Origin: Balneolaceae bacterium
GTDB taxonomy: Bacteria; Bacteroidota; Rhodothermia; Balneolales; Balneolaceae
Reading direction: 5' to 3'
NCBI GenBank assembly: GCA_034521495.1
Contig: JAXHMK010000009.1
Location: forward strand, 124,001-188,000
DNA: 64,000 nt
The notes beneath the pieces are model-generated. The model saw only the letters and a program-made list of their open reading frames with translations, had not been told where the DNA came from and ran no database searches. Below, piece after piece: positions 42,235 to 62,313 of this stretch. The position numbers and the translations under genes are program-made. Each line of letters begins with the position of its first letter. The stretch's first letter is position 1.

Positions 42235-43236
42235 ATGCAAAAAATGAACATTCCCGGATTTGTTGATCTCCAGGTAAACGGATACAAAGGCGTTGATTTT
42301 TCAAGTTCTGATCTGACCGTAGAACGATTCCAGTTTGCTTGTTGGGAACTCATCAAACAGGGCACGATTTTGTTTCTCCCTACCATTATCAGTAGCTCAG
42401 AAGAGATCTATCAACAGAATCTCAAATTGATATCGGAAGTCATTGAGGAAACAGATCTCAAAAATTACATTCCCGGTATTCACCTCGAAGGCCCTTTTAT
42501 TTCTGATGTGGACGGGGCCCGGGGAGCACACAATCCAAAATGGATCAAAAAACCGGACTCTTATTTCTTAGATCAGTTGGTGGAATGGTCTGGCGGGAAG
42601 ATAAAACTGTTAACCATTGCCGCGGAGCTGGATGGTGCCGATGAATTATGCAGACATGCCACCGATTTGGGAATTAAAGTTTCATTGGGGCATCAAATGG
42701 CGAGCCAAGCTGATCTTCAAAGACTTTCCGATTCTGGCGCAAGCTTGCTGACGCATCTGGGAAATGGAATCCCTCAAATAATTGATCGCCACGATAATCC
42801 AATTTGGGCTGGGTTAGCAAATGATGATCTCACAGCGATGATCATAACCGATGGACATCATTTACCGCCTTCATTGATTAAGACAATCCTGAAGGTTAAA
42901 GGAGCTTCAAACACAATTATCGTCAGTGATGCTTCCCCCATAGCAGGTCTCTCTCCCGGGAACTATTCAACACTTGGAAATAAGGTGATCCTGAAGGAAT
43001 CAGGCCGTTTGTATAATCCTGAAACCGGATATCTGGTGGGTTCTTCATCTACGATGATCGATTGCATGAACTATCTGCATTCATTACAACTCTTGAATAA
43101 AAAAGAGTTGCTTGATGTTGGATTTTTTAATCCTTTGAGATTCCTAAAGATGGATCCAGATGAGATTGCAGACCGATTTAACTCGCGGATAGAACTCGAC
43201 GAATATTTTATTTTTTTTGATGACTCAATTTTTTAG
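42235..43236 (+). CDS. nagA: N-acetylglucosamine-6-phosphate deacetylase
   Basis: 333 residues, shorter than the usual 380 because the N-terminal small beta domain is reduced (it starts nearly at PGFVDLQVNGYKGVDFS). Metal and catalytic motifs: GIHLEGPFI with Glu near 83, VSLGHQMAS with His near 150, THLGNGIPQI with His near 177 and VSDASPIAGL with Asp near 226. The enzyme removes acetate from GlcNAc-6-P, and some family members also act on GalNAc-6-P. Given agaS nearby, both substrates may be used. Confidence 0.9.
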   Translation: MQKMNIPGFVDLQVNGYKGVDFSSSDLTVERFQFACWELIKQGTILFLPTIISSSEEIYQQNLKLISEVIEETDLKNYIPGIHLEGPFISDVDGARGAHNPKWIKKPDSYFLDQLVEWSGGKIKLLTIAAELDGADELCRHATDLGIKVSLGHQMASQADLQRLSDSGASLLTHLGNGIPQIIDRHDNPIWAGLANDDLTAMIITDGHHLPPSLIKTILKVKGASNTIIVSDASPIAGLSPGNYSTLGNKVILKESGRLYNPETGYLVGSSSTMIDCMNYLHSLQLLNKKELLDVGFFNPLRFLKMDPDEIADRFNSRIELDEYFIFFDDSIF

Positions 43237-45474: not shown

Positions 45475-46305
45475 TCAGGCCTGCGGTTGATTGATCATGT
45501 TCAATTTAGCCTGAACCAGGTGGTTCACTTGCTCAATGGCAGAAGGAAACACCTTTCTCAAATCGATCTCGTCATTGTCTTTTAGATCCTTTTGCAAGGT
45601 ATTCATAAACATATCTTTGATTTCTGTGGCAAGGTTAATTTTTCGAATACCAAGCGGAATGCTTTTTTTAATTTGAATATCGGGAATGCCGGAGCCGCCA
45701 TGAAGTACGAGCGCAGCAGGTGTGGCTTTATTAATTTTGGACAATCGATCCAGGTCGAGATTGGGTTCCGCTTTGTAAAAACCATGTGCCGATCCGATGG
45801 CCACAGCCAACGCATCGACACCGGTTAGGTCAACAAATTTCTTTGCTTCATCCGGATCTGTGAAGCCTGATTCTTTCTCCTGGGCCTGTCCTAATTTTGC
45901 CACATAACCAAGCTCAGCCTCAACATTGGCGTTATACTTTTTTGCCAGATCAGTGACACGAGAGGTAATCTCTACATTATCAGAAAACGACTTTTCACTT
46001 GCGTCAATCATTACTGAGTCATAACCGGCCTCCAGACATTGTTGAATTAGTTCGTAAGAGTGAGCGTGATCGAGGTGAAGCCATCCCTCCACATTGTGTT
46101 TTTTAAGGGCAGATCTTGCAAGAGCAACGGCAACATCTAATCCAAGATAATCAAGAGTGCTGGGGCTGGTCTGTAAAATGATGGGAAAACCGGTGGCTTC
46201 AGCTGCTTTAAGTACACCGGTAAGTGTTTCGTAGTTATAGAAATTTGTGGCAAGTAAAGCCTTTCCTTCATTTTCAAGCTCTTTAAATTTTTCCTGTAAA
46301 GTCAT
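45475..46305 (-). CDS. class II ketose-bisphosphate aldolase, tagatose-bisphosphate type
   Basis: 276 residues. Zinc ligands and active-site motifs: GWLHLDHAHSYELIQ near 75-88, EAELGYVAKLG near 133, AIGSAHGFYKAEP near 173 and LVLHGGSGIP near 203, then INLATEIKDMF. It resembles GatY/KbaY, which splits tagatose-1,6-bisphosphate into DHAP and glyceraldehyde-3-P; a fructose-bisphosphate preference cannot be excluded by sequence. The neighbours (two PfkB kinases and agaS, all leftward, closely packed) support the tagatose assignment. Confidence 0.85.
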   Translation of the reverse strand: MTLQEKFKELENEGKALLATNFYNYETLTGVLKAAEATGFPIILQTSPSTLDYLGLDVAVALARSALKKHNVEGWLHLDHAHSYELIQQCLEAGYDSVMIDASEKSFSDNVEITSRVTDLAKKYNANVEAELGYVAKLGQAQEKESGFTDPDEAKKFVDLTGVDALAVAIGSAHGFYKAEPNLDLDRLSKINKATPAALVLHGGSGIPDIQIKKSIPLGIRKINLATEIKDMFMNTLQKDLKDNDEIDLRKVFPSAIEQVNHLVQAKLNMINQPQA

Positions 46306-46317
46306 ATGATTTTGATC

Positions 46318-47259
46318 TTATTGTTTAAATTCTTTTGCTGTTTCTAATACTTGATTATAGCTTTTTATGGCACTAATACCACCGGGCGCTGTCGTTGATA
46401 CAGCCGCTGTTTTATTTCCGAATTCTAAACACTTGCCTAATTCTAATCCCTTTAAATGGGCTTGAATAAATCCGGCATTAAAACTATCGCCCGCTCCTAT
46501 CGTGTCAACTATATTAGGAACTGGTAGTGATTTTAGTTCAGTTCTATTCCCATTGTTAAACATTAAAACTCCCTTTTCTCCTCGTTTAATTACAAAACAA
46601 GTATCGTGATGAGCCACCGAGTTTAATGCACTCTCAAGATCAGCTTGGTTGGTGAGCTGAATAAATTCTTCTTCATTAGGTAAGAAGAAATCTAAATTTG
46701 GCAGGATGTTTTCGAGATCTACATCCCATAGCTCGTTGGGATCCCATTGGGTATCCATAGAGGTTGAAACTCCCAAATTTTTTGCCCTTTCAAATAGTTG
46801 ACTTAACTCTTTCTTCAATAATGGTTGAAAAAAAATGGCAGATGTATGGATATGTTTTGAGGATCGAAGTATATCATTTGAAATTTCATCCACAGACAAA
46901 TGCTCCATAGAACCTGGGTAGGTTACCATCATTCGATCATCATCAATAAAAAGAATAATGGTTGCACCGGTTCGAAGAGAATTATCTACAATAATTGAGT
47001 CGATACCCACATGGTTTAACCTCAATTTATTTAAGAGAAATTTTCCGAAAGAATCATCTCCCAATTTTGAAATAAACTCTACTTTTGAACCAAGTTTTGC
47101 AATATTACAAGCAAAAATTGCCGTTGAGCCACCCATCGTTAAGTCCATCTCTCTGGCCATTTGCTCTTCCCCTATTTGCGGTGGTTTGTTGATTTTATTC
47201 AAAATCAGATCAACATTTAAATCGCCAACAACCAGAACATCAATTTTTCTTTTTTCCAT
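46318..47259 (-). CDS. PfkB-family carbohydrate kinase (ribokinase-like)
   Basis: 313 residues from the ATG at 47259, one base after the upstream stop; a start at 47271 (MYVN added) would overlap that gene by 11 bp. Visible are VLVVGDLNVDLIL at the start, GGSTAIFACNIAKLG near 45, and the anion-hole motif DTIGAGDSFNAGFI near 255 with the catalytic Asp. It is more like ribokinase/fructokinase than 1-phosphofructokinase. In a locus lacking PTS genes, a kinase for free GalNAc or another hexosamine is needed, and this is the best candidate. The product would enter the NagA/AgaS steps. Confidence 0.82.
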   Translation of the reverse strand: MEKRKIDVLVVGDLNVDLILNKINKPPQIGEEQMAREMDLTMGGSTAIFACNIAKLGSKVEFISKLGDDSFGKFLLNKLRLNHVGIDSIIVDNSLRTGATIILFIDDDRMMVTYPGSMEHLSVDEISNDILRSSKHIHTSAIFFQPLLKKELSQLFERAKNLGVSTSMDTQWDPNELWDVDLENILPNLDFFLPNEEEFIQLTNQADLESALNSVAHHDTCFVIKRGEKGVLMFNNGNRTELKSLPVPNIVDTIGAGDSFNAGFIQAHLKGLELGKCLEFGNKTAAVSTTAPGGISAIKSYNQVLETAKEFKQ

Positions 47260-47260
47260 G

Positions 47261-48247
47261 TTAACGTACACTTTCTACAGTTGTCTTTTTTTCAAACTCT
47301 ATTACGTCAGAGAGTTGCAGCATTCCTAAATCAGGGTTAATGCAATTTGCGGCTCCACAGGCGGTTGCTGTTTTTGCAATGGTAGAAAGTTCTTTCTCTT
47401 TATACCAGGCATGAAGCAGGCCAGCGGTTAAACAGTCACCGCTTCCAACTGTGCTTACTATATCCTGCACCTTGCAAACTGCATGTAATATTGAATCTTG
47501 ATATCCCAAAAAAAGACCATTGGCTCCATCCGTCAGAGCAACAACATTGCAGTAGGTTAATAGTTTTTCGGTGTATTCAACGGGATTGGTATCTGTCCCC
47601 AATAAATCTTTAGCTTCTTTTTTATTAATGTGAATTCCGAAGGGTTTTACGTCAAGAGCTTGTTGTAATCTTTTGCCACTTGCATCAATCCAAAGGTCCG
47701 TGTTATTCCGTTCACAAATTGAAGAAAGTCTTTGATATACATCTTTCGGGCAATTTTTGGGCCAGGATCCACTGACACACATTGCTTTTACTTCAACTGT
47801 CTCTTTCTCAATGACCTTGAAAAAATCATTAAGAGATTGATTTGAAATTCTGGGACCAATTTCGAGGATTTCGGTATTGTCCGTTTTATTATTTTCTGAA
47901 GTTAGAATTGTTAAACAAGTTCTGTTCCAACCTTCAACATGAACTCCAACGCTGGGGACATTATATGAGCTGCATTTAGTCTGAATCCAATCTCCTGTAG
48001 GCCCACTCCAGAAACCAGCTATTTTTGTATCTGTTTGTAATTCTTTTAAAGCAAGTCCCACATGCACACCTTTTCCACCGGGATAGAATTTTTCATCTAT
48101 GCATCGGTTTACTTTTCCTGTTTGAAGTCGCTTAAGATGAAGAACCTTATCAACTGACGGATTTGGACAAATAGCCAGAAGTGATTTATTAACATTTTCT
48201 TTTGTAATAAGTTTAGATATAATATTTCTTAAAGCTGGAATTGCCAT
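47261..48247 (-). CDS. PfkB-family hexose-phosphate kinase (tagatose-6-P / 1-phosphofructokinase type)
   Basis: 328 residues. LLAICPNPSVDKVLHLKRL near 25-40 and FYPGGKGVHVGLAL near 58 match the FruK/LacC/AgaZ-associated group, and the catalytic motif is STVGSGDCLTAGLLHAW near 270 with Asp. The family phosphorylates fructose-1-P or tagatose-6-P at the free hydroxyl to give a bisphosphate. Between agaS and a tagatose-type aldolase, tagatose-6-P kinase is the likely activity. An extra 20 residues precede the usual start, so translation may begin further in. It is packed directly against the second kinase gene. Confidence 0.84.
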   Translation of the reverse strand: MAIPALRNIISKLITKENVNKSLLAICPNPSVDKVLHLKRLQTGKVNRCIDEKFYPGGKGVHVGLALKELQTDTKIAGFWSGPTGDWIQTKCSSYNVPSVGVHVEGWNRTCLTILTSENNKTDNTEILEIGPRISNQSLNDFFKVIEKETVEVKAMCVSGSWPKNCPKDVYQRLSSICERNNTDLWIDASGKRLQQALDVKPFGIHINKKEAKDLLGTDTNPVEYTEKLLTYCNVVALTDGANGLFLGYQDSILHAVCKVQDIVSTVGSGDCLTAGLLHAWYKEKELSTIAKTATACGAANCINPDLGMLQLSDVIEFEKKTTVESVR

Positions 48248-48282: not shown

Positions 48283-49446
48283 TCAGTTGTAAATAGTTAC
48301 TCCCTTCACGACCCGGGATATTACATTGTTTTGTGAAGGTGCGTCGGGATCTAAGCCCAGATCAAGTGATTTGTAATATCCAAGTATTTGAGCCGGGAGA
48401 ACATATAAAACAGAAATGAAGGGCGACACTTTTGCTGAATTGTTGAGGTTAAAAATAATTTTTTGATCCAGTTCAACTTCTTTTGCCTGATTTTTATCAC
48501 AAAAAACACCCATACAGTGCATTGCTATCCCGTCTTGTTGTATTTCATTAACAAGATCTTTCTCATACCTAAAAACTTTTTCGTCTGGCGAAAATAGAAA
48601 TACAATAACGGTTTTATTATTTACAACCGCTTTTGGACCATGCCTGAATCCAAGAAAAGAATCGTGCTTGCCAACAACCTTACCGTCCGTTAGTTCCTGG
48701 ACTTTGAGATGCGATTCTTTTGCAATTCCCTCCAGAGGCCCCGATCCCAGGAATACAATTCTGTCAAATGACTTGAATGAAAGATTTTTTAATCCTGTGG
48801 AACAGCTCTTAATAACCTTTTTAGCACTATCGGAAATATTTTCAATAATTTGAGCATGACCATCTGATTTCTGTGAAGTGGCAATGTATAATGCTGTTAG
48901 AATCATTGATGTAAAGCTGCCGGTCATAGCCAATCCTTTATCTTCAGATTGCGGCGGCAAAATAATAGTCAGTCCATTTTCTAATTTGCTTACCGTTTGA
49001 GCAAGTTTACCATGTGCATTACAGGTAATAGCAATATGATGTACTTCTTTGTTAAATCGTTCTGCTATATCAACAATTGCATTGCTTTCGGGGCTGTTTC
49101 CAGATCGTGCAAAAGAGATTAAGAGTAGTGGAATATCAAAATCAACAAGACTTTTAAAATGGGTTACCAGTGAGGTAGTAGATATCGCCCTTGCATTCAC
49201 TCCGGGCATGAATTTAAAATAAGTTTCAACAGTTTCCCCAATAAAAGATGAACTTCCAGCACCCGTTAGAATTACATTTAATTTTTCTTTTTTATATAGA
49301 GGGTTTAAAAAACCTTGAATTCTTTTGTCGTTATTTGTTTGCTCAATAGTCTCTACCCATAGAGCTGGTTGTCCTTCGATTTCTTTCCTTGTATGAATGG
49401 TATTTGTTTTTTCAATATCCATAATAAAATTTGAATTGGTAGACAA
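48283..49446 (-). CDS. agaS: AgaS-type SIS-domain sugar isomerase/deaminase
   Basis: 387 residues, the same length as E. coli AgaS. Closely matching stretches are VILTGAGSSSFIGETVE near 60, LLLISFARSGNSPESNAI near 105, GLAMTGSFTSMILTALY near 165, DRIVFLGSGPLEGIAKES near 220 and GFRHGPKAVV near 252, ending in NVISRVVKGVTIYN. AgaS converts galactosamine-6-P to tagatose-6-P with release of ammonia. It is the first gene of the leftward operon agaS-kinase-kinase-aldolase-transporter and faces the GH109-like gene across an AT-rich control region. Confidence 0.9.
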   Translation of the reverse strand: MSTNSNFIMDIEKTNTIHTRKEIEGQPALWVETIEQTNNDKRIQGFLNPLYKKEKLNVILTGAGSSSFIGETVETYFKFMPGVNARAISTTSLVTHFKSLVDFDIPLLLISFARSGNSPESNAIVDIAERFNKEVHHIAITCNAHGKLAQTVSKLENGLTIILPPQSEDKGLAMTGSFTSMILTALYIATSQKSDGHAQIIENISDSAKKVIKSCSTGLKNLSFKSFDRIVFLGSGPLEGIAKESHLKVQELTDGKVVGKHDSFLGFRHGPKAVVNNKTVIVFLFSPDEKVFRYEKDLVNEIQQDGIAMHCMGVFCDKNQAKEVELDQKIIFNLNNSAKVSPFISVLYVLPAQILGYYKSLDLGLDPDAPSQNNVISRVVKGVTIYN

Positions 49447-49834: not shown

Positions 49835-51229
49835 ATGAACTTCAATCGCAGAGATTTTCTTAAAAAAAGCGGACTTGCAACACTCGGACTAACTGGGCTT
49901 GGAACGTTTGGAAAAAGGGAAAAAAATGGACCTTATCAATTTAGAAAAGAGCATGAGCAGACCTTTAATATGCATAACTATGCTGCACCGGCTATTGATT
50001 TGGTCCGGATTGGTTTTATAGGAGTTGGAAGCAGGGGAAGTGGTCATGTAAGAAGGCTCAGACAGATTGAAGGAACTGAAATCAGGGCTCTTTGTGATAT
50101 AGATGAATCAGCACTGAATGAGGTACTTGAAGATTTTGATCAGCCCGTAGATACTTACACAGGCAGTGAAGATGCGTGGAAAGAGTTGTGTGAAAGAGAT
50201 GATCTTGACCTGATAATCAATGCTGCTCCGTGGCATTTGCACACCCCGATCTGTCTCTATGCAATGGAAAATGGTAAGCACACAGCCACTGAAATACCGG
50301 CTGCACAAAGTTTGGAAGAGTGCTGGGCGCTCGTAGAAGCATCAGAGCGGACCAAGAAACACTGCTATATCATGGAAAATGCTTGCTATGGCGAGTTCGA
50401 AATGGTGACTCTGAATATGGCCAGGGAAGGATACTTTGGAGAACTGATTCATGCTGAGGGCGCTTATATACACCAACTTATGCGTCATAATTTTACGAGA
50501 GGCAACTATCATAATATGTGGCGCTTCCGTGAAAATGCTACTCGGAATGGTAATCTTTATCCCATGCATGGATTAGGCAGTATAGCACAGAGCATGGAAA
50601 TTAACTATGGAGATCAGATGAAATATATGGTCTCCGTTTCAAGTGCCGACTTTATGATGCAAAAAAGAACCCGGGAGCTGGCTGAAAGCGATCCATTCTT
50701 TGAAGATTTTGTTGATAATGAGTTCCGGGGAAATATGAATACCAGCATTATCAAAACCTTTAAAGGGCGAACCATTATGCTTCAGCATGATGTGACTTCA
50801 CCCCGGCCGTACTCTCGAATTCATTTGTTAAGTGGAACAGAAGGGATTGCCCGCGAATATCCCGAACCGCGAATTGCAAACAGTCATGATGGATGGCTTG
50901 AGCAGGAAGAGTTTGATGCAGTTATCGAAAAGTATAAACCTGAGATTATTAAACGAGTTGGCGAAATGGCCCGGCAAATGGGAGGCCATGGAGGAATGGA
51001 TACACTCATGACCTGGCGATTGATTGACTGTCTCAGAAATGGAATTCCATTGGATATGGATGTGTACGATGCTGCTTCCTGGAGTTCGGTGATTCCGTTA
51101 AGCGAATGGTCAGTGGCAAATGAGGCCACTCCGATCCATTTTCCTGATTTTACGTCAGGTGCATGGCGAACAAATAAACCCAATATGGATATTGAGCTGG
51201 AAAGAGGTGGGACCACACAATTTGCATAG
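49835..51229 (+). CDS. GH109-like alpha-N-acetylgalactosaminidase (Tat-exported, NAD-dependent)
   Basis: 464 residues with a Tat leader (NFNRRDFLKKSGLATLGLTG). It has a Gfo/Idh/MocA fold but carries the residue pattern of GH109: NAD loop GVGSRG (63-68), WHLH (133-136), EI (153-154), ENACY with N182, YIH (Y211, H213) and YPMH (242-245), then GHGGMD and DVYDAASWSSVIPLSEWS. GH109 enzymes use a bound NAD+ to cleave alpha-GalNAc by transient oxidation at C3. This is the most canonical of the three copies here. It lies opposite agaS, whose pathway consumes GalNAc, and a terminator follows the gene. Substrate specificity is inferred. Confidence 0.82.
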   Translation: MNFNRRDFLKKSGLATLGLTGLGTFGKREKNGPYQFRKEHEQTFNMHNYAAPAIDLVRIGFIGVGSRGSGHVRRLRQIEGTEIRALCDIDESALNEVLEDFDQPVDTYTGSEDAWKELCERDDLDLIINAAPWHLHTPICLYAMENGKHTATEIPAAQSLEECWALVEASERTKKHCYIMENACYGEFEMVTLNMAREGYFGELIHAEGAYIHQLMRHNFTRGNYHNMWRFRENATRNGNLYPMHGLGSIAQSMEINYGDQMKYMVSVSSADFMMQKRTRELAESDPFFEDFVDNEFRGNMNTSIIKTFKGRTIMLQHDVTSPRPYSRIHLLSGTEGIAREYPEPRIANSHDGWLEQEEFDAVIEKYKPEIIKRVGEMARQMGGHGGMDTLMTWRLIDCLRNGIPLDMDVYDAASWSSVIPLSEWSVANEATPIHFPDFTSGAWRTNKPNMDIELERGGTTQFA

Positions 51230-52818: not shown

Positions 52819-54168
52819 ATGAGCAATCAATACGACAGAAAGGATTTTCTGAAAATTTCATCGACAGCAATGGGTGGCGCAATGCTAACCTCAATGGGTT
52901 TGTCAAAAATCTCTTTCGCAAGGAAAAAGAATGTTTTGGATCAGGACAGCCCCGTTCGTCTTGGGTTTGTTGGAATCGGTGGCCGTGGTCAGTGGCACTT
53001 AAGTTCAGCTCTTGGAATTCCGGGCGTTCAGGTTCCGGCAATATGTGAAATCAAACCGGAGCGGTTGTACACAGCCAAACGATGGGTAGAAGAATCAGGT
53101 CAGCCAACTCCAACCTTGTATGGAGCTGATGAAGACGAAACTGCTTTCAAGAGAATGTGCGAGGAGGAAGAACTCGATGCTATCATCTGCTCTACATCAT
53201 GGAAATGGCACGCCCCGGTTGTTCTTGCGGCCATGAATAACGATAAACATGCCGCCTGCGAAGTGCCGCTAATGCTAACTCTCGATGAGGCTTGGGAAAT
53301 AGTAGAAACGCACGAAAGTACAGGTAAATGGGCAAGCACCGTATTAGGTGGCTTTCCGGATGTGACCCTTTTAAATATGATTCGCCAAGGATTGCTGGGT
53401 GATATGATTCACGCTGAAGGAGGGTATATCCACGATCTTAGATTTGTGAAGCACGCCCCGGATGAAGAACCCTGGAGATTATGGCATTCTATCTACAGAA
53501 ACGGGAACCTCTATCCTGATCATCCCATGAGAACGATCATGCCGGCCCTGGATATTAATCACGGTGATCGCATTGACTACCTGATTTCCATGAGTTCCAA
53601 AGCTGTAATGTTGAACGATTATGCTGCCGATCAATATGGCAAAGAACACCCATACGCCACAAAAGAGATGAAACAGGGAGATTACAACGCCTCACTGATT
53701 CGAACGGTTGACGGCAAGATGATAACTCTGAATTTCGATACGAATACTCCACACCCGAGAGGAAATTATCGTTTTCAGGGCACCAAAGGTGTTTACCTGA
53801 GAGATCGTGGTACCAATCGTATTTATGTTGAAGGCCAAAGTCCGGAATCGCATGAATGGGAACCAGCTGAAAAATACAGGGATGAGTATGAATCACCAAT
53901 CCTGAAAAATTATGATCCACCGGAACGAGTTGTTGAGATTCGCGGCCATGGAGGCTCAAACAGACAGACATCTATCAACTGGACGAACCTGGTTGAAGCC
54001 ATTCGAAATGACACATCACCATACATTGATACCTATGATTCCGTAACCAGCAGTGCTGTATCTGCGATTACTGAAAAATCGATAGCTGAGGGCTGCAGGC
54101 CAGTTGATTTTCCTGACTTTACAAGAGGAAAATGGCAAAACAGAGCACCGATTTTAGAGCAAGCATAA
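52819..54168 (+). CDS. GH109-like exported oxidoreductase-fold protein, divergent subgroup (copy 1)
   Basis: 449 residues. The Tat-like leader has an R-K pair (YDRKDFLKISSTAMGG). GH109 features are GIGGRG (52-57), WKWH (128-131), EV (148-149), YIH (Y203, H205) and YPDH (232-235), with a tail DTYDSVTSSAVSAITEKS. The asparagine of the ENxCY motif is absent: the region reads TVLGGFPDV. So the substrate pocket or NAD contact differs from the canonical copy at 49835. Closely similar to the 55382 gene. It precedes an exported amidohydrolase by 30 bp, and the pair is duplicated downstream. Either a GH109 with altered specificity or a sugar oxidoreductase. Confidence 0.8.
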   Translation: MSNQYDRKDFLKISSTAMGGAMLTSMGLSKISFARKKNVLDQDSPVRLGFVGIGGRGQWHLSSALGIPGVQVPAICEIKPERLYTAKRWVEESGQPTPTLYGADEDETAFKRMCEEEELDAIICSTSWKWHAPVVLAAMNNDKHAACEVPLMLTLDEAWEIVETHESTGKWASTVLGGFPDVTLLNMIRQGLLGDMIHAEGGYIHDLRFVKHAPDEEPWRLWHSIYRNGNLYPDHPMRTIMPALDINHGDRIDYLISMSSKAVMLNDYAADQYGKEHPYATKEMKQGDYNASLIRTVDGKMITLNFDTNTPHPRGNYRFQGTKGVYLRDRGTNRIYVEGQSPESHEWEPAEKYRDEYESPILKNYDPPERVVEIRGHGGSNRQTSINWTNLVEAIRNDTSPYIDTYDSVTSSAVSAITEKSIAEGCRPVDFPDFTRGKWQNRAPILEQA

Positions 54169-54198
54169 TACTATCAATGGCTTAGGAGGAACATTAAA

Positions 54199-55206
54199 AT
54201 GAATAACAGAAGAAATTTTCTCAAAAAAACAGGATTGGCTGGGTTGGGACTAACCGGTTTGGGGTTTCTTGGGTCAAATTCAACCCAGGCAAAATCAACG
54301 AAACCTACCGAAGAACAGGTAACGGGTGATCTGAGGTTGCTGGATTGGGAACCTATACCACAACTTGTTGTGGAAGAGACGATCATTACAAAACCAAAAT
54401 TCCCGGTTATTGATATCCACAATCATTTGAGGGACCTGGATAGAACGGAGGAGTATCTCAAAGCAATGGATGAGGCAGGCGTTTGGAAAGTTGTGAGTTT
54501 GGATGGAAGATCTGAAGACGGCTTTTACAAAGAGCATCTGGAAGTCTCAAACAGTGTTGCCGAGGAAAGGTTTATCGTATTTTATCGAATTGATTACAGC
54601 AGGATTGATGAACCGAATTATGGTGAAGATGAAGCGGACAGGCTTGAGCAAGCAGTTGAAGCGGGACTTCGGGGAATTAAGGTGTCTAAATCACTTGGAT
54701 TACGCTATAGAGATGCGAGCGGAGAATTGATTCGCGTGGATGATCAGCGCCTTGATCCTGTTTGGGCAAGGGCCGGTGAATTAGGTATTCCTGTGTTGAT
54801 GCACATCTCAGATCCAAAAGCATTTTTCACCCCGATTGACAGGTACAATGAGCGCTACGATGAACTGGGTGCACATCCAGACTGGGGATTTTCCGGCCCT
54901 GAATTTCTTGAAAAAGAGGAGCTTTTGCGGCAACGAAACCGTGTATTTGAACGTCATCCGGATACAACATTCATAGCCACTCATATGGCAAACTTGCCGG
55001 AAGAGTTGGGCAGAGTATCGATGTGGTTAGAGAAATATCCAAACATCTATGTGGATATTGATGCCCGAATTAGTGAGTTGGGACGCCAGCCATACACCGC
55101 CCGGAAGTTTATGATAAAACATCAGGACAGGGTGCTTTTTGGTACCGATACAGCCCCGAATGTGGAATCATACAGGGTGTACTATCGGTTCTTGGAGACC
55201 GGATGA
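54199..55206 (+). CDS. Tat-exported amidohydrolase-2 family protein, frameshifted near the end
   Basis: A Tat leader (NNRRNFLKKTGLAGLGLTG) closely similar to that of the 49835 gene precedes a TIM-barrel metal-dependent hydrolase: VIDIHNHLRD near 73, LMHISDPKA near 200, FIATHMANLP near 258 and LFGTDTAPN near 312. The frame ends at YRFLETG. Removing one G at 55201-55202 continues TDDEYINADPSHHRQGRWRI, YGLYLPDDVLEKIYNKNALK and a stop at 55340-55342, which matches the ends of the other two amidohydrolases here. The family includes lactonases and decarboxylases; the substrate is unknown. It forms a module with the preceding GH109-like gene. Confidence 0.8.
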   Translation: MNNRRNFLKKTGLAGLGLTGLGFLGSNSTQAKSTKPTEEQVTGDLRLLDWEPIPQLVVEETIITKPKFPVIDIHNHLRDLDRTEEYLKAMDEAGVWKVVSLDGRSEDGFYKEHLEVSNSVAEERFIVFYRIDYSRIDEPNYGEDEADRLEQAVEAGLRGIKVSKSLGLRYRDASGELIRVDDQRLDPVWARAGELGIPVLMHISDPKAFFTPIDRYNERYDELGAHPDWGFSGPEFLEKEELLRQRNRVFERHPDTTFIATHMANLPEELGRVSMWLEKYPNIYVDIDARISELGRQPYTARKFMIKHQDRVLFGTDTAPNVESYRVYYRFLETG

Positions 55207-55381
55207 TGAATACATCAATGCTGATCCAAGCCACCACAGGCAAGGACGCTGGCGAATTTACGGGTTATATCTGCCGGATGATGTATTGGAAAAAATCTAC
55301 AACAAAAATGCTCTCAAAATTTTCGAGCAGTTCAATGGATAAGTCGATTCAAACAGTTTAAATAATAAATGGGATTTTACT

Positions 55382-56731
55382 ATGAGTAATAAATTTGACA
55401 GAAAAGATTTCTTAAAGATGTCCACTGCCGGTTTAAGCACATCCGTTCTTGCCGGAATGAGTTTATCAAAACCGGTAGTTGCCAAAAAGAGAACAACGCA
55501 ACAGCAGCCGATTCGTCTTGGGTTTGTGGGAATTGGCGGTCGGGGAACCTGGCATTTAAGTGCTGCTCTTGGTATTGAAGGGGTTAAAGTGCCTGCAATT
55601 AGTGAAATTCGGGCAGACCGGCTCGAAAATGCAAAAAACATGATTGAAGCGTCCGGGAGGCCGTCTCCTACATTATACGGGCAAGGTCCCAATGGCGAAA
55701 CCGATTTTGTAAAAATGTCTGAAGAGGAAGATCTGGATGCCATCATTTGTGCCACTTCCTGGAAATGGCATGCTCCCATTTGCCTGGCAGCAATGAACAA
55801 CGATAAGCATGTAGCCTGTGAAGTTCCATTGGTGCTTACCCTCGATGAAGCATGGAAAATTGTAGAAACTTATGAGAAGACAGGAAAATGGGCGAGTACT
55901 GTTTTGGGCGGTTTTCCAGATGTTACTCTATTGAATATGATTCGAAAAGGTCTGTTTGGGGAAGTTCTGCATATTGAGGACGGATATGTTCATGACCTTA
56001 GATTTGTGAAAAATAACGTAGAGCGTGAACCGTGGAGACTCCAACATTCCATTGACCGGAATGGAAATCTCTACCCCGATCATCCTATGAGAACTATTAT
56101 GCCGGCGATGGATATTAACCACGGCGATCGAATCGATTTTTTGGTTTCTATGAGCTCAAAAGCTGTTATGCTGAACCGGTATGCTGCAGAACAGTTTGGT
56201 CCCGATCATCCCGATGCTACCCGCGATATGAATCAGGGTGATTATAACGCTTCCCTGATTCGAACGGTAAACGGTAAAATGATTACGCTCAATTTCGACA
56301 CTAATACACCTCACCCCAGGGAGAGCTTTCGCCTCCAGGGATCGAAAGGTGTGTATGAAGATGGTGCCGATCTGGAAACCATCTATCTTGAGGGACCAAG
56401 TCCGGAATCTCATGAGTGGGAATCAGCCGAGCCGTACCTTGAAGAGTACGAACATCCCATGTTGAAGAATTATAACCCACCACCACGTATTGGTGGTGCT
56501 ATTGAGGGACATGGCCGACGCATGGACCAGACACCTATTAATTGGCATAACCTGATTACGGCGATTAATGAAGGAATCCAGCCTTACATCGATACCTATG
56601 ACTCTGTCACAAGTAGCGCTGTTTCTGCTGTTACTGAGGCTTCCGTTGCAAATAACGGACGCCCGGTTGATTTTCCAGATTTTACAAAAGGAAAATGGAA
56701 AGAAAGGACTCCGATTTTTATGGATGCCTGA
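55382..56731 (+). CDS. GH109-like exported oxidoreductase-fold protein, divergent subgroup (copy 2)
   Basis: 449 residues, same length as and strongly similar to the 52819 product throughout (FDRKDFLKMST leader, GFVGIGGRGTWHLSAALGIE, SWKWHAPICLAAMNNDKH). GH109 marks: WKWH (127-130), YVH (Y202, H204), YPDH (231-234); again no ENxCY asparagine (TVLGGFPDV). It differs from copy 1 mainly in surface loops (an extra GPNGET insertion near 103 and EDGADLE near 320). It is the first gene of a second GH109-like/amidohydrolase module, followed by a lipoprotein amidohydrolase 117 bp on. Confidence 0.8.
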   Translation: MSNKFDRKDFLKMSTAGLSTSVLAGMSLSKPVVAKKRTTQQQPIRLGFVGIGGRGTWHLSAALGIEGVKVPAISEIRADRLENAKNMIEASGRPSPTLYGQGPNGETDFVKMSEEEDLDAIICATSWKWHAPICLAAMNNDKHVACEVPLVLTLDEAWKIVETYEKTGKWASTVLGGFPDVTLLNMIRKGLFGEVLHIEDGYVHDLRFVKNNVEREPWRLQHSIDRNGNLYPDHPMRTIMPAMDINHGDRIDFLVSMSSKAVMLNRYAAEQFGPDHPDATRDMNQGDYNASLIRTVNGKMITLNFDTNTPHPRESFRLQGSKGVYEDGADLETIYLEGPSPESHEWESAEPYLEEYEHPMLKNYNPPPRIGGAIEGHGRRMDQTPINWHNLITAINEGIQPYIDTYDSVTSSAVSAVTEASVANNGRPVDFPDFTKGKWKERTPIFMDA

Positions 56732-56772
56732 TTAGCGTATCAACCAAAGAAGACTAAAAATTGACGTGTTCA

Positions 56773-56814
56773 AGGCATCCATATTTTTTTTGAATTAAGA
56801 AAATGTGGATGCCT
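56773..56814. terminator. hairpin between copy-2 GH109-like gene and amidohydrolase
   Basis: AGGCATCCA (56773-56781) pairs with TGGATGCCT (56806-56814), and T8 lies inside the loop instead of after the stem, so termination would be weak. It may attenuate transcription within the operon. Confidence 0.4.
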
Positions 56815-56848
56815 AAATAATTTAAACATAGAATTAATACGGAGTACA

Positions 56849-58015
56849 ATGATGAGCTATTCAAGACAAAATGTAATTGTAACGATACTATTACTAAGTA
56901 TCGCAGGATTGTTTATACACAGTTGCACCCAGCAAGAGGGTCAGGATCAGTATAATACTCAGACTAACGAGGGTGGGCTTTTGGATACTCTTCTGTTGAA
57001 AGACTGGATGCCCGAATCAGTTTATAATGTACAAAAAACAAATATCACGAAAGCAAAATATCCGGTCATAGATTTGCATGCTCATGCGTATGCAAAAACA
57101 GAGGAAGAAGTGGCAGAACGTGTTGCAATTATGAATGAAGTTGGAATTGAACGATCTGTTGTTTTAACCGGTGCAACAGGTGAGAGGTTTGATGAACTTC
57201 ATACACTCTATTCACAATACCCTGATCGCTTTGATCTTTATGTGGGGCTTGATTACACCGGATACGAAGAGGAAGGTTGGGCTCAGACAGTTGTTGATGA
57301 ACTCCGGCGTGTTGCTGAAATGGGAGCTGTTGGAATTGGTGAAATTCATGATAAAGGCCCTGGTTTAGCTCCAGGAATGCATCCGGATGATCCACGAATG
57401 GATCCAATTTTTGAGGTTGCCGCCGAGTTAGATTTCATAGTAAATCTACATGTTGCTGAACCCATCTGGATGTATGAACCGATGGATTCCACAAACGACG
57501 GTTTGACTCGTGCGTATACCTGGCGAGTTCAAAATCAGGATCAAATTGTTGGCCATGACGGGATGATTGAAATCTTAGACAACACGTTAGAGCGACACCC
57601 CAATACGACATTTGTAGCAGCTCACTTGGCGAATACCAGCAATGATTTTTCTCTCTTAGCAGATCTGTTTGATAAACATGAAAACTTGTATGGAGATATG
57701 TCAGCCCGTTTTGGAGAATTTTCTACCATTCCCAGGGCAACGGCTGCATTTTTTGAAGAATACCAGGATAGAATTGTCTATGGAACCGATTATGGTTTCG
57801 AGACTTTTCCGGATGATCCATCTAAACCGTACGGAAATAACACCACCACCGAAGAGATGTTTAAAATGACATTTCGGGTTCTCCAAACCGCCGATGAGCA
57901 TTTCTACATCACGGATCTTGTGGGATATAAATGGCCGATGTATGGGTTGGATTTAAGCGATGAAGTACTACGAAAAATCTATCGTGAAAATGCTCTGCAA
58001 ATAATGGGTGAATAG
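56849..58015 (+). CDS. amidohydrolase-2 family lipoprotein
   Basis: 388 residues. Signal peptide with lipobox IHSC near residue 26, so it is anchored in the envelope. Metal-hydrolase motifs: VIDLHAHAYAK near 75, GIGEIHDKGPG near 168, VNLHVAEPIWM near 198, FVAAHLANTS near 255 and VYGTDYGFETF near 310. The C-terminal MYGLDLSDEVLRKIYRENAL resembles the other two family members here. Position after a GH109-like gene repeats the 52819-54199 module. The reaction may be opening of a lactone or another cyclic product of the upstream enzyme, but that is inference. Confidence 0.8.
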   Translation: MMSYSRQNVIVTILLLSIAGLFIHSCTQQEGQDQYNTQTNEGGLLDTLLLKDWMPESVYNVQKTNITKAKYPVIDLHAHAYAKTEEEVAERVAIMNEVGIERSVVLTGATGERFDELHTLYSQYPDRFDLYVGLDYTGYEEEGWAQTVVDELRRVAEMGAVGIGEIHDKGPGLAPGMHPDDPRMDPIFEVAAELDFIVNLHVAEPIWMYEPMDSTNDGLTRAYTWRVQNQDQIVGHDGMIEILDNTLERHPNTTFVAAHLANTSNDFSLLADLFDKHENLYGDMSARFGEFSTIPRATAAFFEEYQDRIVYGTDYGFETFPDDPSKPYGNNTTTEEMFKMTFRVLQTADEHFYITDLVGYKWPMYGLDLSDEVLRKIYRENALQIMGE

Positions 58016-58178: not shown

Positions 58179-59894
58179 ATGGAATATATTGGTAAGTCTC
58201 AGGATGAACGAACATTTGATGCAATTGTAATTGGTTCCGGAATGAGTGGCGGTTACGCCGCCAAGGAGCTTTGTGATAACGGAGTGAAAACTCTCGTACT
58301 TGAACGAGGTCGCCCGGTGAAGCATGGGGATTATCCCACCGCAATGAAAGATCCCTGGGAGATTGATAATGCGGGAAGGTTGCCACAAGAGATGCTCGAA
58401 AAGAACCCGATTATTGCCAAGTGCTATGCTTTCGATAAAACAACCGAGCACTTTTTCGTGAAGGATGAGGAGCAACCGTACATCCAGGAAAAACCATTCG
58501 ACTGGATTCGCAGTTATCAGGAAGGCGGTAAATCTCTGGTGTGGGCGCGAGGCTGCCAGCGGTGGAGCAAGTACGATTTTGAAGCACCCGGGCGAGACGG
58601 CTACGGTATCGAATGGCCGATTACATATGATGATTTAGCTCCATGGTATTCTAAGGTTGAAAAGTTTGCCGGATGGAGTGGAAATAAAGATGGCCTTGAA
58701 CATTTTCCCGATGGAGAATTTTTGCCACCCTTTGAATTCAATTGTGTGGAGGAGCATATGAAAGAGAAGATCGAATCTTCATTTAAGGATCGATACTTTA
58801 TCCAGGGCCGATGTGCGCATCTCACACAAGTACAAGACATTCACCGGCAACAAGGCCGCGGACAGTGCATGGCAAGAAATCTGTGTCAGCGTGGATGTCC
58901 ATATGGAGCATATTTTAGTTCTAATTCCACAACGCTCCCCTGGGCGATGAAGACAGGAAATCTGACGATTCGTACGCATTCGGTAGTCCACTCCATTATT
59001 TATGATAAGGACAAAAAGAAAGCTGTTGGAGTAAGAGTTGTTGATGCGAATACAAAAGAGATGTCGGAATATTATGCGCGGATCATTTTTGTGAATGCGG
59101 CATGTCTCAACTCCAATATGATTTTGCTGAACAGCAAGTCTGAGCGATTTCCAAATGGGCTTGGTAATGACAGTGGTGTTTTAGGCCATTATATAGGCTT
59201 CCACAATTACCGTGGCAGAATGAGTGGAACCATCGACGGCTTTGATGACAAATACTATTTCGGAAGAAGGCCAACCGGTCCGCTGATTCCACCGTTCAGA
59301 AATGTTTTTGAACAAGAAAGTGATGCAGATTTCCAGGGTCGATATCACATCTCCATCGGTGCAAGCCGTTCAGGGTGGACGCGTGGTATGAGATCAGATA
59401 AAATTGGTACCGATCTTAAACAAGAACTCCAGGAACCCGGAGGATGGAGAGTCGGCGGACGTATGTCCGGTGAAGTAATTCCACGGTATGAAAACCACAT
59501 TCGTCTCAGCGAAACGGAGACAGATGAATGGGGTTTCCCACAGCTTGTCTTCTCTATTGATTATGGAGAAAATGATGTGAAAATGATGGAAGATTACCTT
59601 GAAAAAGGATTGGAAATCATGGAAGCTGTTGGTGTAAAAAACATTCAAACGTCAGACAACAATCAAAATCCCGGATTAGATATTCACGAGATGGGCGGAG
59701 TTCGAATGGGCAAAGATCCCGAGACATCCATCCTGAATAAATGGAACCAGGTTCACTCCTGTGAAAATGTGTTTGTAACAGACGGGGCTTGTATGACTAC
59801 GACATCAACCCAAAATCCTTCACTTACATTTATGGCAATCACGGCACGAGCAGCAAATTATGCGGTTGAAGAGATGAACAGAGGGAATTTGTAA
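58179..59894 (+). CDS. GMC-family FAD-dependent oxidoreductase
   Basis: 571 residues without a signal peptide. FAD-binding start AIVIGSGMSGGYAAKELCD near 12 and RGRPVKHGDYP near 44; the SYQEGGKSLVWARGCQRWSK region near 110; a cysteine-rich piece CMARNLCQRGCPYGAYFSSN near 228; and the C-terminal GGVRMGKDPETS and DGACMTTTSTQNPSLTFMA with the active-site His/Asn region. This Bacteroidota type of GMC enzyme usually pairs with a small gluconate 2-dehydrogenase subunit 3 protein carrying the Tat signal. No such gene is next to it. It probably oxidises a sugar or sugar acid. Confidence 0.87.
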   Translation: MEYIGKSQDERTFDAIVIGSGMSGGYAAKELCDNGVKTLVLERGRPVKHGDYPTAMKDPWEIDNAGRLPQEMLEKNPIIAKCYAFDKTTEHFFVKDEEQPYIQEKPFDWIRSYQEGGKSLVWARGCQRWSKYDFEAPGRDGYGIEWPITYDDLAPWYSKVEKFAGWSGNKDGLEHFPDGEFLPPFEFNCVEEHMKEKIESSFKDRYFIQGRCAHLTQVQDIHRQQGRGQCMARNLCQRGCPYGAYFSSNSTTLPWAMKTGNLTIRTHSVVHSIIYDKDKKKAVGVRVVDANTKEMSEYYARIIFVNAACLNSNMILLNSKSERFPNGLGNDSGVLGHYIGFHNYRGRMSGTIDGFDDKYYFGRRPTGPLIPPFRNVFEQESDADFQGRYHISIGASRSGWTRGMRSDKIGTDLKQELQEPGGWRVGGRMSGEVIPRYENHIRLSETETDEWGFPQLVFSIDYGENDVKMMEDYLEKGLEIMEAVGVKNIQTSDNNQNPGLDIHEMGGVRMGKDPETSILNKWNQVHSCENVFVTDGACMTTTSTQNPSLTFMAITARAANYAVEEMNRGNL

Positions 59895-59978: not shown

Positions 59979-61106
59979 TTATATAGTAATAAAGATCTTT
60001 CGCTTATAGAGGAAGTAGGTGATATACCACATCAACCCAAGAACAACAGTGGCTGTGATTAGATCAATCCACGCTTCGGGCATTGAAACGATTCCTAAAG
60101 TATCTGCTGTGAATATATCAATGAAATCGTATAGCCAGTCGACTGCACCAAATTCACTGAAAAGGTAGATGAAAAGCGGGTTCATTCCAACAATCGCAAA
60201 AAATCGACCGGTACTGATATATTTCTTTTTCACGTCGAAAAAATAGAACGATCCGGCCAATGCCAAGAGACACCATCCACCGCTGACAATGGTAAATGAA
60301 GATGTGGAAATTCGCTTGATGATCGGAGTGATGAATGGATCCATCAAATATCCAAGAATGGCTAAACCCACGCCATAAATTAGAAGCTTTTTCAGTTTAT
60401 CTGAAACTTCAAATTTATTGCTGATTAAAAGCTGACCGGCAATCACTCCCCAGATTGTATGAGCTGCTGTGGGAAGTGCGTTGATAGCAACCCAATGTCC
60501 TCCACTAAGTTGTCCCATCAGAACAAGATCCATCCAGGCACCGAAGTTTTTGTCGGGCGTGAATGGTTGGGTGAATCCCTCAACCCAGAAAAGTCTGTAA
60601 AGAAGTTCGGTTAGCAATAATAGTCCAATGGAGAAGCTGATTTGGAATTTCCAGCTTTTTCTCATGATCAAAAATGCTACTAAATAGGTAAAAGAGAGCT
60701 GGGCCAGAACATTCCATAATTCAAAAACTATTTCTCCGGAATATGCACATTGAATCATGATGCCAAGCAAGAGCAGTATAAATGATCGGTAAAGCGCATG
60801 TTTGAATGTTTTATTCCATGAATCACCACGCGCCCATCGTTTGCCAAAGGAGATCGGCATAGCAACACCCACTATAAACATGAAGAAGGGTTGGACGAGG
60901 TCCCAAAATCGTAATCCATTCCATGGATGGTGGCGAAACTGCTCGCCGATGGAACTCATAATGCTGCCTTCAAAATAGGGAGCATTAATGGCATACCAGA
61001 GTGCTGCGCCTTCAGCAATCAACAGAAACATAGTCAACCCTCTGTAAAAATCGAGAGATAACAGGCGGCCGTAATCGTCAAGTAGAGGGTTGTCGATTTT
61101 AGCCAT
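59979..61106 (-). CDS. HGSNAT-like membrane acyltransferase (DUF5009 type)
   Basis: 375 residues with ten or more membrane helices. The start RLLSLDFYRGLTMFLLIAEG carries the SLDxxRG pattern of the heparan-alpha-glucosaminide N-acetyltransferase/YeiB/DUF1624 group, with further conserved histidine and tryptophan positions (FRHHPWNGLRFWDLVQPFFM near 58-77). Human HGSNAT acetylates glucosamine using acetyl-CoA across a membrane. Within an amino-sugar locus, acetylation of an exported sugar before uptake would fit. It reads against the GMC gene and in the same direction as the third amidohydrolase. Confidence 0.75.
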   Translation of the reverse strand: MAKIDNPLLDDYGRLLSLDFYRGLTMFLLIAEGAALWYAINAPYFEGSIMSSIGEQFRHHPWNGLRFWDLVQPFFMFIVGVAMPISFGKRWARGDSWNKTFKHALYRSFILLLLGIMIQCAYSGEIVFELWNVLAQLSFTYLVAFLIMRKSWKFQISFSIGLLLLTELLYRLFWVEGFTQPFTPDKNFGAWMDLVLMGQLSGGHWVAINALPTAAHTIWGVIAGQLLISNKFEVSDKLKKLLIYGVGLAILGYLMDPFITPIIKRISTSSFTIVSGGWCLLALAGSFYFFDVKKKYISTGRFFAIVGMNPLFIYLFSEFGAVDWLYDFIDIFTADTLGIVSMPEAWIDLITATVVLGLMWYITYFLYKRKIFITI

Positions 61107-61152: not shown

Positions 61153-62313
61153 TCAGAGCCCGAGATTTGGAATCCAGTTTCTCGCATTTTCACGATATAA
61201 TTTGTCAATAACTTCTTTCGGTAGCTTTAGCCCCTGGAAACTTCCTTCAACCTGCCAAACTTCGAGTGTGTTATCCGTCACAAAAAATTCCCAGTCACTT
61301 CTCCAGGTATCAGCCGCGAGTTGTCGAACTTCTTCAGGATCAGAAGAGTCATAGAGTTGCAAGTCCGTTGAATACAGTAGACGATCTTGATATTCGATAA
61401 AGAACTCCCGCAGAGCTTCGCGATCTTTCTGGGCTAAATACTGCAGGTGTGGAATTCTGTGAGCCATTCCCAAAATCATATTTGGATATTTATCCAGGTG
61501 TTCGCTCATCATTTCAATACTCCACTCCATACTTCCGAGGTGAGCTCCGAAAAAAGTCAGGTTCGGATTTTTATCAAGCATGGCATCGCGGGAAGCAATA
61601 ATCTCTTCGTAAGAGGGATACTCCGGGTGTTGATACATATGATACTGTGGATTGTTTTCGAAATAGTCGCGGTCGTTAGCAACTGTCATCTCATCAAGCG
61701 GTAACCAGCAGTTTTTAGGCTCTCCGATATGACCAAAAAGAGGAATGTTCTCATCGGAGAGATATTGAAAAATCGGGTCGAACTGCGGATCGTCGATCAT
61801 TACGAAATTCCCGTTTTCATCTCTCAATTCCATCCCTATATTTTTCCAAACTTTTACGCCGATGGCTCCATTTTCAAAGGACTGTTCTAAATAATCTAAT
61901 GTGTTTTGTTGCCAGGTTTCGGAGTCGTTAAATCCTTCCAAAGAAAAAGCAGATGTGTAGGCAAGCCGGTCTGCGCGATCTTCCCGTAATTCAAGAGCTA
62001 TACGTTGTTGTTCGGCAACTGGCTGCATTCCTCCGCTTGCCACATTCAAAGTGATCATCTTTACATTATCTTCAATGCCCTGTTCAATAACCACTGGGTT
62101 TACAGCATTAAGATGGACGTGGGAATCAATTTTTTCAACGGATGTGAAATCTTCAGCACTATAATAATTATCAATCTGATCAGTTTCACTTTGCTCACTT
62201 TGGCAAGCGGAAAAAAATAATATTGTGATGAAAATCGGCAGAGAGTAGCAAATACGTGATAGGCTTATTGGAATTTTTGTGGTTTGGGGAATATCAAGTA
62301 AAATTTTATTCAT
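61153..62313 (-). CDS. amidohydrolase-2 family lipoprotein, third copy
   Basis: 386 residues. A long N-terminal lead precedes the hydrophobic stretch ending in a lipobox (FSAC near residue 37). Motifs: KIDSHVHLNAV near 64, GVKVWKNIGME near 153 (candidate carbamylated lysine), LFGHIGEPKNCW near 193, FFGAHLGSMEW near 253 and LLYSTDLQL near 313. The end (LKLPKEVIDKLYRENARNWI) matches the copies at 54199 and 56849. It is the most divergent of the three and lies in the minus-strand cluster with the HGSNAT-like and CBM9-like genes. Confidence 0.8.
   Translation of the reverse strand: MNKILLDIPQTTKIPISLSRICYSLPIFITILFFSACQSEQSETDQIDNYYSAEDFTSVEKIDSHVHLNAVNPVVIEQGIEDNVKMITLNVASGGMQPVAEQQRIALELREDRADRLAYTSAFSLEGFNDSETWQQNTLDYLEQSFENGAIGVKVWKNIGMELRDENGNFVMIDDPQFDPIFQYLSDENIPLFGHIGEPKNCWLPLDEMTVANDRDYFENNPQYHMYQHPEYPSYEEIIASRDAMLDKNPNLTFFGAHLGSMEWSIEMMSEHLDKYPNMILGMAHRIPHLQYLAQKDREALREFFIEYQDRLLYSTDLQLYDSSDPEEVRQLAADTWRSDWEFFVTDNTLEVWQVEGSFQGLKLPKEVIDKLYRENARNWIPNLGL

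Follow-up and report, generated by a model that had tools for sequence, protein, structure and literature searches.

Divergent GH109 proteins interleaved with two PF04909 amidohydrolases in a Balneolaceae genome: a candidate route for the removal of terminal galactosamine

The window analyzed here is a stretch of 64,000 nucleotides (64 kb; contig JAXHMK010000009.1, positions 124,001 to 188,000) from the genome of a Balneolaceae bacterium (GCA_034521495.1; 4.57 Mb in 22 contigs). Between positions 52819 and 58015 of its + strand, two divergent GH109-class proteins (G1 and G2) alternate with two amidohydrolases of the PF04909 family (A1 and A2) in the order G1, A1, G2, A2, and a gene for a GMC oxidoreductase follows at 58179. 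Related genomes and loci are referred to below by our own G and L numbers. The features of the array are as follows:

52819..54168, + strand: G1, divergent GH109-class protein of 449 amino acids (aa), by Pfam; ENxxY and the PRPY Tyr lost, YPDHPM and RGHGG present
54199..55342, + strand: A1, PF04909 amidohydrolase, exported-looking (Tat-like); the open frame covers 54199-55206 (335 aa), with a frame break after about 55200
55382..56731, + strand: G2, paralogue of G1, 449 aa, with GHGR in place of GHGG (Pfam, motifs, AlphaFold2 model)
56849..58015, + strand: A2, exported-looking (lipoprotein-like) PF04909 amidohydrolase, 388 aa; HxH, Glu165, His201, His259, Asp314
58179..59894, + strand: GMC oxidoreductase, by Pfam; it closes the array in genomes G108, G171 and G203 as well

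Both G1 and G2 match the Pfam families Glyco_hydro_109_C and GFO_IDH_MocA (163.3 and 168.9 bits against PF21252, cut-off 27), while A1 and A2 match Amidohydro_2 (PF04909; 84.2 bits for the open part of A1 and 86.1 bits for A2, cut-off 26.4). No NCBIfam family matched the open part of A1, A2 or A3, a third PF04909 amidohydrolase of the window, at E<=0.001, so there is no match to TIGR00221 (AgaA/NagA). A first-pass annotation, made by a model from the sequence alone, had assigned A1 and A2 to different export routes, and this agrees with our judgment by eye, made without a signal-peptide program: A1 starts with NRRNFLKK, which is Tat-like, and A2 has a lipobox-like ...IHSC. The same annotation had taken the genes at 52819 and 54199 for a two-gene module copied as 55382 plus 56849. 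A duplicated module is ruled out: the GH109s are indeed paralogous (69% identical), but the amidohydrolases share just 30% identity and belong to separate clades of the tree, each with 100/100 support. By these comparisons, what was duplicated is the GH109 gene, and two distinct amidohydrolase genes alternate with its copies.

The frame of A1 is interrupted. Against sister proteins, frame 1 of the window aligns over 54199-55200 and frame 2 over 55202-55339. All three sister genomes compared carry an intact copy. Past the break, the window copy is 93-96% identical to two sister copies and 76% identical to the third; because this sequence is still conserved, the break would be either recent or a sequencing error, and both a true break and an error are possible. 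Elsewhere in the window, the match to a transporter near 39885 is spread over two frames, and the reading frame of an epimerase-like gene at 51344-52218 is open over its first part only (126 aa versus 287 aa in a sister).

The association of GH109 with these amidohydrolases, which might have been a chance feature of one locus, recurs elsewhere. Genome G203, from the same genus, carries the array in the order SusC-like, SusD-like, G1, A1, G2, GH109, A2, GH109, amidohydrolase, GMC, with identities to the window of 96% for G1, 95% for the main part of A1 and 92% for G2. In G108 the order is SusC-like, SusD, G1, A1, G2, A2, a further amidohydrolase and GMC, and G171 holds a variant (GH109, A1, GH109, GMC); the SusD-type gene was assigned by Pfam, and the SusC-like gene by look, without a scan. 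Orthologues of G1 reach 96% (L117) and 87% (L071) identity. A second locus of the window genome contains a broken A2-like gene and another GH109, 311 bp apart. A1 itself is narrowly distributed: at >70% identity it occurs in 4 of 395 genomes of the phylum, all in the window's genus, and seven other listed members of that genus gave no match at E<=1e-45.

A more distant series comes from the family of Maribacter orientalis (G395), which we take to be Flavobacteriaceae. Of 299 genomes drawn from this family, five encode a GH109 that belongs with G1 and G2 (E<=1e-130), and every one of the five copies adjoins an A1-, A2- or A3-type gene, in a draw that is partly non-independent (L200 lies in G395, and G440 shares the coordinates of L146); the copy in G615 holds a stop. 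In Maribacter orientalis, homologues of G2 (67%) and A1 (69%) share one stretch with AgaS-like, PfkB-like, GatY and GH36-like genes. These recurrences support the conclusion that the pairing is not due to chance. As the first-pass annotation had supposed, no description of a pathway pairing GH109 with this amidohydrolase family was found in the open-access literature.

The pairing is not a general property of the amidohydrolase family. A group of A1 relatives present once per genome (about 43% identical to A1) rules this out, with no GH109 nearby in any of the 17 stretches examined (L119-L135; in L128 and L129 the amidohydrolase itself is not among the listed open reading frames (ORFs), ORF picking being unsure in G+C-rich stretches). 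L128 also contains a GMC-like ORF (29%), and in L132 and L135 the A1 relatives adjoin molybdenum-cofactor or molybdenum-hydroxylase-like genes, as judged by sequence starts.

The neighborhoods of A2-like genes were surveyed through an alignment scan with two peptide patterns, which returned 404 relatives; the best 80 loci were read, some on short contigs where neighbors can be missed. Within 5 kb, the most frequent families were GH36-like proteins (16 loci), GH109 (14), a sulfatase cluster (10) and DUF5009 (8), followed, at 7 loci each, by additional amidohydrolases and three secretion-type or unknown clusters. Comparing ORFs at <=3 kb with those at >5 kb by Fisher tests, which ignore relatedness, GH109 accounts for 18/353 versus 3/359 (p 5.6e-4), GH36-like proteins for 16 versus 4 (p 0.005), sulfatases for 10 versus 0 and DUF5009 for 8 versus 1. 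The GH36-like representative from L170 matched, among solved proteins at E<=1e-60, only the chains 9awt, 9ayu and 8x1b of FpGalNase, the galactosaminidase of Flavonifractor plautii (9awt at E 1.6e-81); 8x1b is filed as an alpha-galactosidase, with a sequence nearly that of the FpGalNase chains. The accessible part of PMC11762096 lists K461, D463, Y464, C513 and D532 as key residues of FpGalNase. In L170, K461, C513 and D532 align with like residues and Y464 does not. Searched from its own side, the GH36-like gene turned up at 7 places, spread over 6 of 345 genomes.

The divergence of G1 and G2 is concentrated around the sugar site. They had been described as keeping WKWH, YxH and YPDH and losing the Asn of an ENxCY motif; the kept motifs are confirmed, but the loss extends to the whole E-N-x-x-Y, found as ENACY in the canonical GH109 of the window (49835-51229), and to the Tyr of PRPY. 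The ENxxY Asn is presumably an NAD-binding residue. We compared 47 distinct GH109s from the loci read (one gene being counted twice, in L072 and L264), calling paired those on the same strand as, and <=300 bp from, an amidohydrolase. The ENxxY Glu is lost in 16 of 19 paired proteins versus 7 of 28 others (p 7.5e-5), the PRPY Tyr, equivalent to Y339 of AmGH109A, is replaced in 16/19 versus 5/28 (p 7.9e-6; the rows are related, and both p values are only a guide), and both are lost in 15/19 versus 5/28. A wider limit, which admits two genes lying 304 and 311 bp away, gives loss of the Tyr in 18 of 21 paired proteins versus 3 of 26 others. On the tree, the paired losses need three changes among grouped rows, and four by eye: the G class, a second class also without the GGHGG His, and two single genes.

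The equivalents of Y226, R244, Y256 and H259 are invariant in all 47 proteins, and that of H404 is kept in 16 of the 19 paired ones. As far as the accessible part of PMC13335675 goes, simulation identifies Y226, E240, R244, Y256, Y339 and H404 as binding N-acetylgalactosamine (GalNAc), and the EN pair is not named, so that a role of the lost Asn as the N-amide contact would be conjecture. G1 and G2 keep the catalytic Tyr (YxH), the YPxH His and the loop His (RGHGG in G1, EGHGR in G2), whose catalytic roles are described in the part of PMC10755693 that was available. The Y339 equivalent is Arg, and the residue before the YPxH His is Asp, in G1, G2 and their relatives from the Maribacter family; as a guess, this Asp could meet a free amine. 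The alignments support the view that changes around the sugar site of the divergent GH109s go along with the pairing.

Another GH109 subclass, encoded close or next to amidohydrolases, lacks both ENxxY and the GGHGG His while keeping YxH and YPxH (L074:10959-12392, L118:11016-12449, L075:4600-6048, L075:17555-18979, L117:13283-14734 and L144:6923-8353); judging by these losses, it may fail to complete the hydrolytic cycle.

Predicted structures agree with the family assignments. The AlphaFold2 model of G2 (26 sequences; predicted local distance difference test, pLDDT, 85.2) finds its best Foldseek matches in the GH109 structures 2ixa (E 3.3e-41, template modeling score 0.80) and 6t2b. That of A2 (59 sequences, pLDDT 89.5) matches PF04909-type and other amidohydrolase barrels. 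A2 keeps the full amidohydrolase metal site (HxH...H...H...D); the motifs of A1 and A3 were compared too, and the fourth-strand position is Glu in A2 and Lys in A1 and A3. The PF04909 enzymes ACMSD, gamma-resorcylate decarboxylase, LigJ, LigY and 2-pyrone-4,6-dicarboxylate hydrolase share this fold and the HxH/H/H/D-type metal site, with only 11-23% identity in the alignments listed; their substrates are aromatic or ring-cleavage acids.

Upstream of the array, the minus strand carries AgaS-like, LacC/1-PFK-type kinase, PfkB-like kinase, GatY and permease-like genes, and the + strand holds a NagB-like and a NagA-like gene. The other relevant features of the window are:

42235..43236, + strand: NagA-like deacetylase (TIGR00221 188 bits, below the cut-off of 225.65)
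45475..46305, - strand: GatY-type class II aldolase (TIGR00167 230 bits, above the cut-off of 215.6; tagatose- and fructose-specific models below theirs)
46318..47271, - strand: PfkB/ribokinase-type sugar kinase, candidate galactosamine (GalN) or GalNAc kinase (by look, without a hidden Markov model scan)
47261..48247, - strand: 1-PFK/LacC-type kinase, candidate tagatose-6-phosphate kinase (TIGR03168 212 bits, below the cut-off of 216.4)
48283..49446, - strand: AgaS-like sugar isomerase, candidate galactosamine-6-phosphate deaminase/isomerase (TIGR02815 345 bits, below the cut-off of 529)
49835..51229, + strand: canonical-motif GH109 (ENACYG, YPMH, GGHGG; Pfam and motifs)
59979..61106, - strand: DUF5009 membrane protein (Pfam 27.3 bits, cut-off 25)
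61153..62313, - strand: A3, the third amidohydrolase of PF04909 in the window, judged lipoprotein-like by eye; its clade also holds a cytosolic type

Genes of the AgaS family (E<=1e-50) occur in 8 of 178 genomes, at least four of which had been met earlier in the analysis (G395; G804, G851 and G864 resemble G108, G158 and G171). No NagA/AgaA was seen at E<=1e-15 in five of these eight genomes, and seven of the eight carry PF04909 relatives (E<=1e-25); genome completeness is known for few of them. Among nine amidohydrolase-bearing genomes, NagA is missing in four, a sample biased by genomes having been picked for the amidohydrolase. Of the AgaS loci, seven were read, one from G203 and the others from six of the eight genomes; five of them had been chosen because an amidohydrolase had already been seen nearby. 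At six of the seven, the exception being G710, an A3-type amidohydrolase without a visible signal peptide lies in or beside the AgaS operon (L264:8766-9788, L265:11556-12551, L266:3593-4618, L267:8792-9820, L268:7885-8901 and L270:8328-9356). In G790 and G814 the operon reads AgaS-TagK-PfkB-GatY-A3, with no other acetyl-removing candidate among the listed ORFs; the argument for deacetylation comes from this context only. The A3 type is a candidate replacement for AgaA in AgaS operons. In three sister loci, a 405-aa gene occupies the place of TagK.

We propose that the array serves an extracytoplasmic two-step removal of terminal galactosamine, to which we assign a probability of about 40%. In the first step, a metal-dependent PF04909 amidohydrolase would take the N-acetyl group off a non-reducing alpha-GalNAc or another form of GalNAc. 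In the second, the divergent GH109 (G1 or G2), with its GalNAc-contacting Tyr and ENxxY replaced and its oxidation and elimination residues retained, would cleave alpha-GalN by an NAD+-dependent cycle of oxidation, elimination, hydration and reduction. GalN would then be imported and pass through the PfkB-type kinase, AgaS, the tagatose-6-phosphate kinase and GatY. A1 and A2 may act on different linkages or next to different neighboring sugars, and the cytosolic A3 type may carry out the same deacetylation on GalNAc or GalNAc 6-phosphate. This proposal builds on the order and conservation of the genes, their association, the residue patterns and the predicted folds, from which the two reactions and their substrate are inferred. 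It is favored by the recurrent pairing, by the homologues of FpGalNase and by the AgaS operons.

The closest known system is the Flavonifractor plautii pair FpGalNAcDeAc and FpGalNase (GH36), which follows the same proposed logic, the acetyl group being taken off before alpha-GalN is cleaved; FpGalNase-like proteins, of which one representative was compared, are the commonest A2-like neighbors (16 of 80 loci). The system proposed here differs in that the putative deacetylase is a TIM barrel of the amidohydrolase superfamily and the glycosidase of the window a GH109 variant. With the NAD-dependent alpha-N-acetylgalactosaminidases EmGH109 (2ixa) and AmGH109A (6t2b), G1 and G2 share the fold and the equivalents of Y226, R244, Y256, H259 and H404, and they differ by lacking ENxxY and by having Arg for Y339 and Asp before the YPxH His. 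AgaA and NagA, the deacetylases of GalNAc 6-phosphate and N-acetylglucosamine 6-phosphate, belong to the same superfamily, and the A3 type resembles them in its position within or next to the AgaS operon; however, A1, A2 and A3 are recognized by PF04909 but by none of the NagA models, and A1 and A2 look exported.

Several observations weigh against this proposal. On the side of the amidohydrolases, A1, A2 and A3 lie in separate clades, and A1 is closer (about 43-45%) to the GH109-free group present once per genome than to A2 (30%), so the amidohydrolases do not form one clade of GalNAc enzymes. Among the matches listed, the structural neighbors of A2 are decarboxylases, LigJ/LigY, lactonases and phosphotriesterase-like proteins, with no single function; searches by sequence for solved relatives of A1 (as a sister copy), A2 and an A2-like profile gave none at E<=1e-5, 1e-3 or 0.01. 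We know of no sugar deacetylase in PF04909. The window itself contains a NagA-like gene, which weakens A1 and A2 as candidates for a missing deacetylase of this genome, and NagA and the amidohydrolase do not cleanly exchange, as NagA-positive AgaS genomes carry PF04909 relatives too. All eight AgaS matches fall below the curated cut-off of the family, so AgaS is named by homology only, and G710, which has AgaS and a GH36-like gene, lacks both NagA and the amidohydrolase, the pattern expected of a plain GalN user. The GMC oxidoreductase at the end of the array is not accounted for by the proposed route.

The associations also have their limits. GH109 is absent within 5 kb of 66 of the 80 A2-like loci (some contigs being short); AgaS (5 versus 1), PfkB (5 versus 2) and GatY (4 versus 2) are not significantly nearer to A2-like genes at <=3 than at >5 kb; and the Fisher tests, as noted, treat relatives as independent. 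The five-of-five pairing includes at least two genomes, G395 and G440, known beforehand from A2-like loci. Of the 7 places with a GH36-like gene, 3 have an amidohydrolase relative no more than 1.5 kb away and one more has GatY-PfkB, and the K-x-D of L170 taken for the nucleophile D463 was read by eye across an insertion. The 300-bp definition of a pair was the analyst's choice; three paired GH109s keep ENxxY (L143, L144 and L200) and three keep the Tyr (L075, L143 and L200).

The strongest rival, unlikely in our estimation, is a 3-keto-sugar route, in which the GMC oxidoreductase (or a flavin oxidase with cytochrome c elsewhere), the GH109-like protein or both would make a 3-keto-glycoside or 3-keto-glycal, and the PF04909 barrel would eliminate, hydrate or otherwise resolve the product. 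In its favor, a GMC gene closes the array in the window, G108, G171 and G203, and two of these four loci also encode a 3keto-disac_hyd or AP_endonuc_2 protein. The possibly incomplete cycle of the paired subclass without the GGHGG His, and the presence of LigJ, a hydratase, among the structural neighbors of A2, point the same way, and precedent exists in the Mn-dependent TIM-barrel eliminases that act on other 3-keto-glycosides, as described in the accessible part of PMC10628242. However, no GMC gene was seen in the five Flavobacteriaceae-type loci of the G class that were read (L145-L148 and L200), and G1 and G2 retain the three catalytic residues named in the available part of PMC10755693. 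Such a route does not predict a link to AgaS, GatY or the FpGalNase homologues, and it hardly explains a cytosolic A3 as the only addition to the AgaS operons of G790 and G814.

It is likewise improbable that free GalN is already present in the substrate, for instance in a natural galactosamine polymer, with the GH36-like and divergent GH109 proteins as galactosaminidases and the amidohydrolase acting on another N-acyl or ester group of the same glycan. G710, with AgaS and GH36 and without amidohydrolase or NagA, would fit this situation, as would DUF5009 near 8 of the 80 loci, and agaS without agaA is interpreted as GalN use in the accessible part of PMC5583593; what it leaves unexplained is an amidohydrolase of the same family, cytosolic, inside the AgaS operon. 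Still less probable is ordinary accretion, whereby GH109 and amidohydrolase genes would frequently come together in large sugar loci while sharing no pathway. The A2-like loci without GH109 (66/80) and the 25 matches to G2 (E<=0.001, G2 itself counted) in the window genome are what it would produce, but the near-versus-far enrichment, the five-of-five pairing and the correlated residue changes are not. The idea of the first-pass annotation, that the first enzyme makes a sugar lactone which the second opens, is very improbable. In its favor are an adjoining oxidoreductase and the alignment of A2 with 2-pyrone-4,6-dicarboxylate hydrolase and phosphotriesterase-like lactonases (among many near-equal matches, with decarboxylases and hydratases aligning as well). 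Nothing specific indicates a lactone. Against the idea, G1 and G2 retain the GH109 residues that oxidize C3 and bring about the elimination, the substrate of AgaS-GatY is an amino sugar phosphate and not an aldonate, and the FpGalNase homologues find no place in it. De-N-acetylation fits better, because related genes adjoin GalN/GalNAc catabolic genes and galactosaminidase homologues.

A flavin amine oxidoreductase lies near GH36-like and A2-like genes in L072 (5624-7831), L136, L145 and L217, with a cytochrome-c-like gene adjoining in three of the four, and might oxidize an amino sugar. Exported LmbE/PIG-L deacetylase-like proteins, recognized by sequence starts near A2-like genes (L143:274-1185, L204:1392-2288 and L211), are another possible candidate deacetylase. 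Two Pfam-less proteins (L071:4941-7055, 704 aa; L072:4044-5558, 504 aa) recur in related loci, and unpaired A2-like genes are also found in Planctomycetota and Acidobacteriota.

Taken to its full extent, the proposal would make these PF04909 proteins a new class of GalNAc N-deacetylases, the GH109 subclass an NAD-dependent alpha-galactosaminidase, and the cytosolic sister clade the enzyme that does the work of AgaA in the AgaS operons of NagA-less Bacteroidota; we regard this combination as doubtful. To our knowledge, no NAD-dependent alpha-galactosaminidase has been known before. If true, it would provide a function for many unassigned PF04909 amidohydrolases (a single scan returned 404 stretches related to A2), account for deacetylation in some AgaS operons of Bacteroidota and widen the substrate range of GH109. 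Such deacetylase/galactosaminidase pairs would also be of practical use for stripping terminal GalNAc from glycans, as the F. plautii pair is used.

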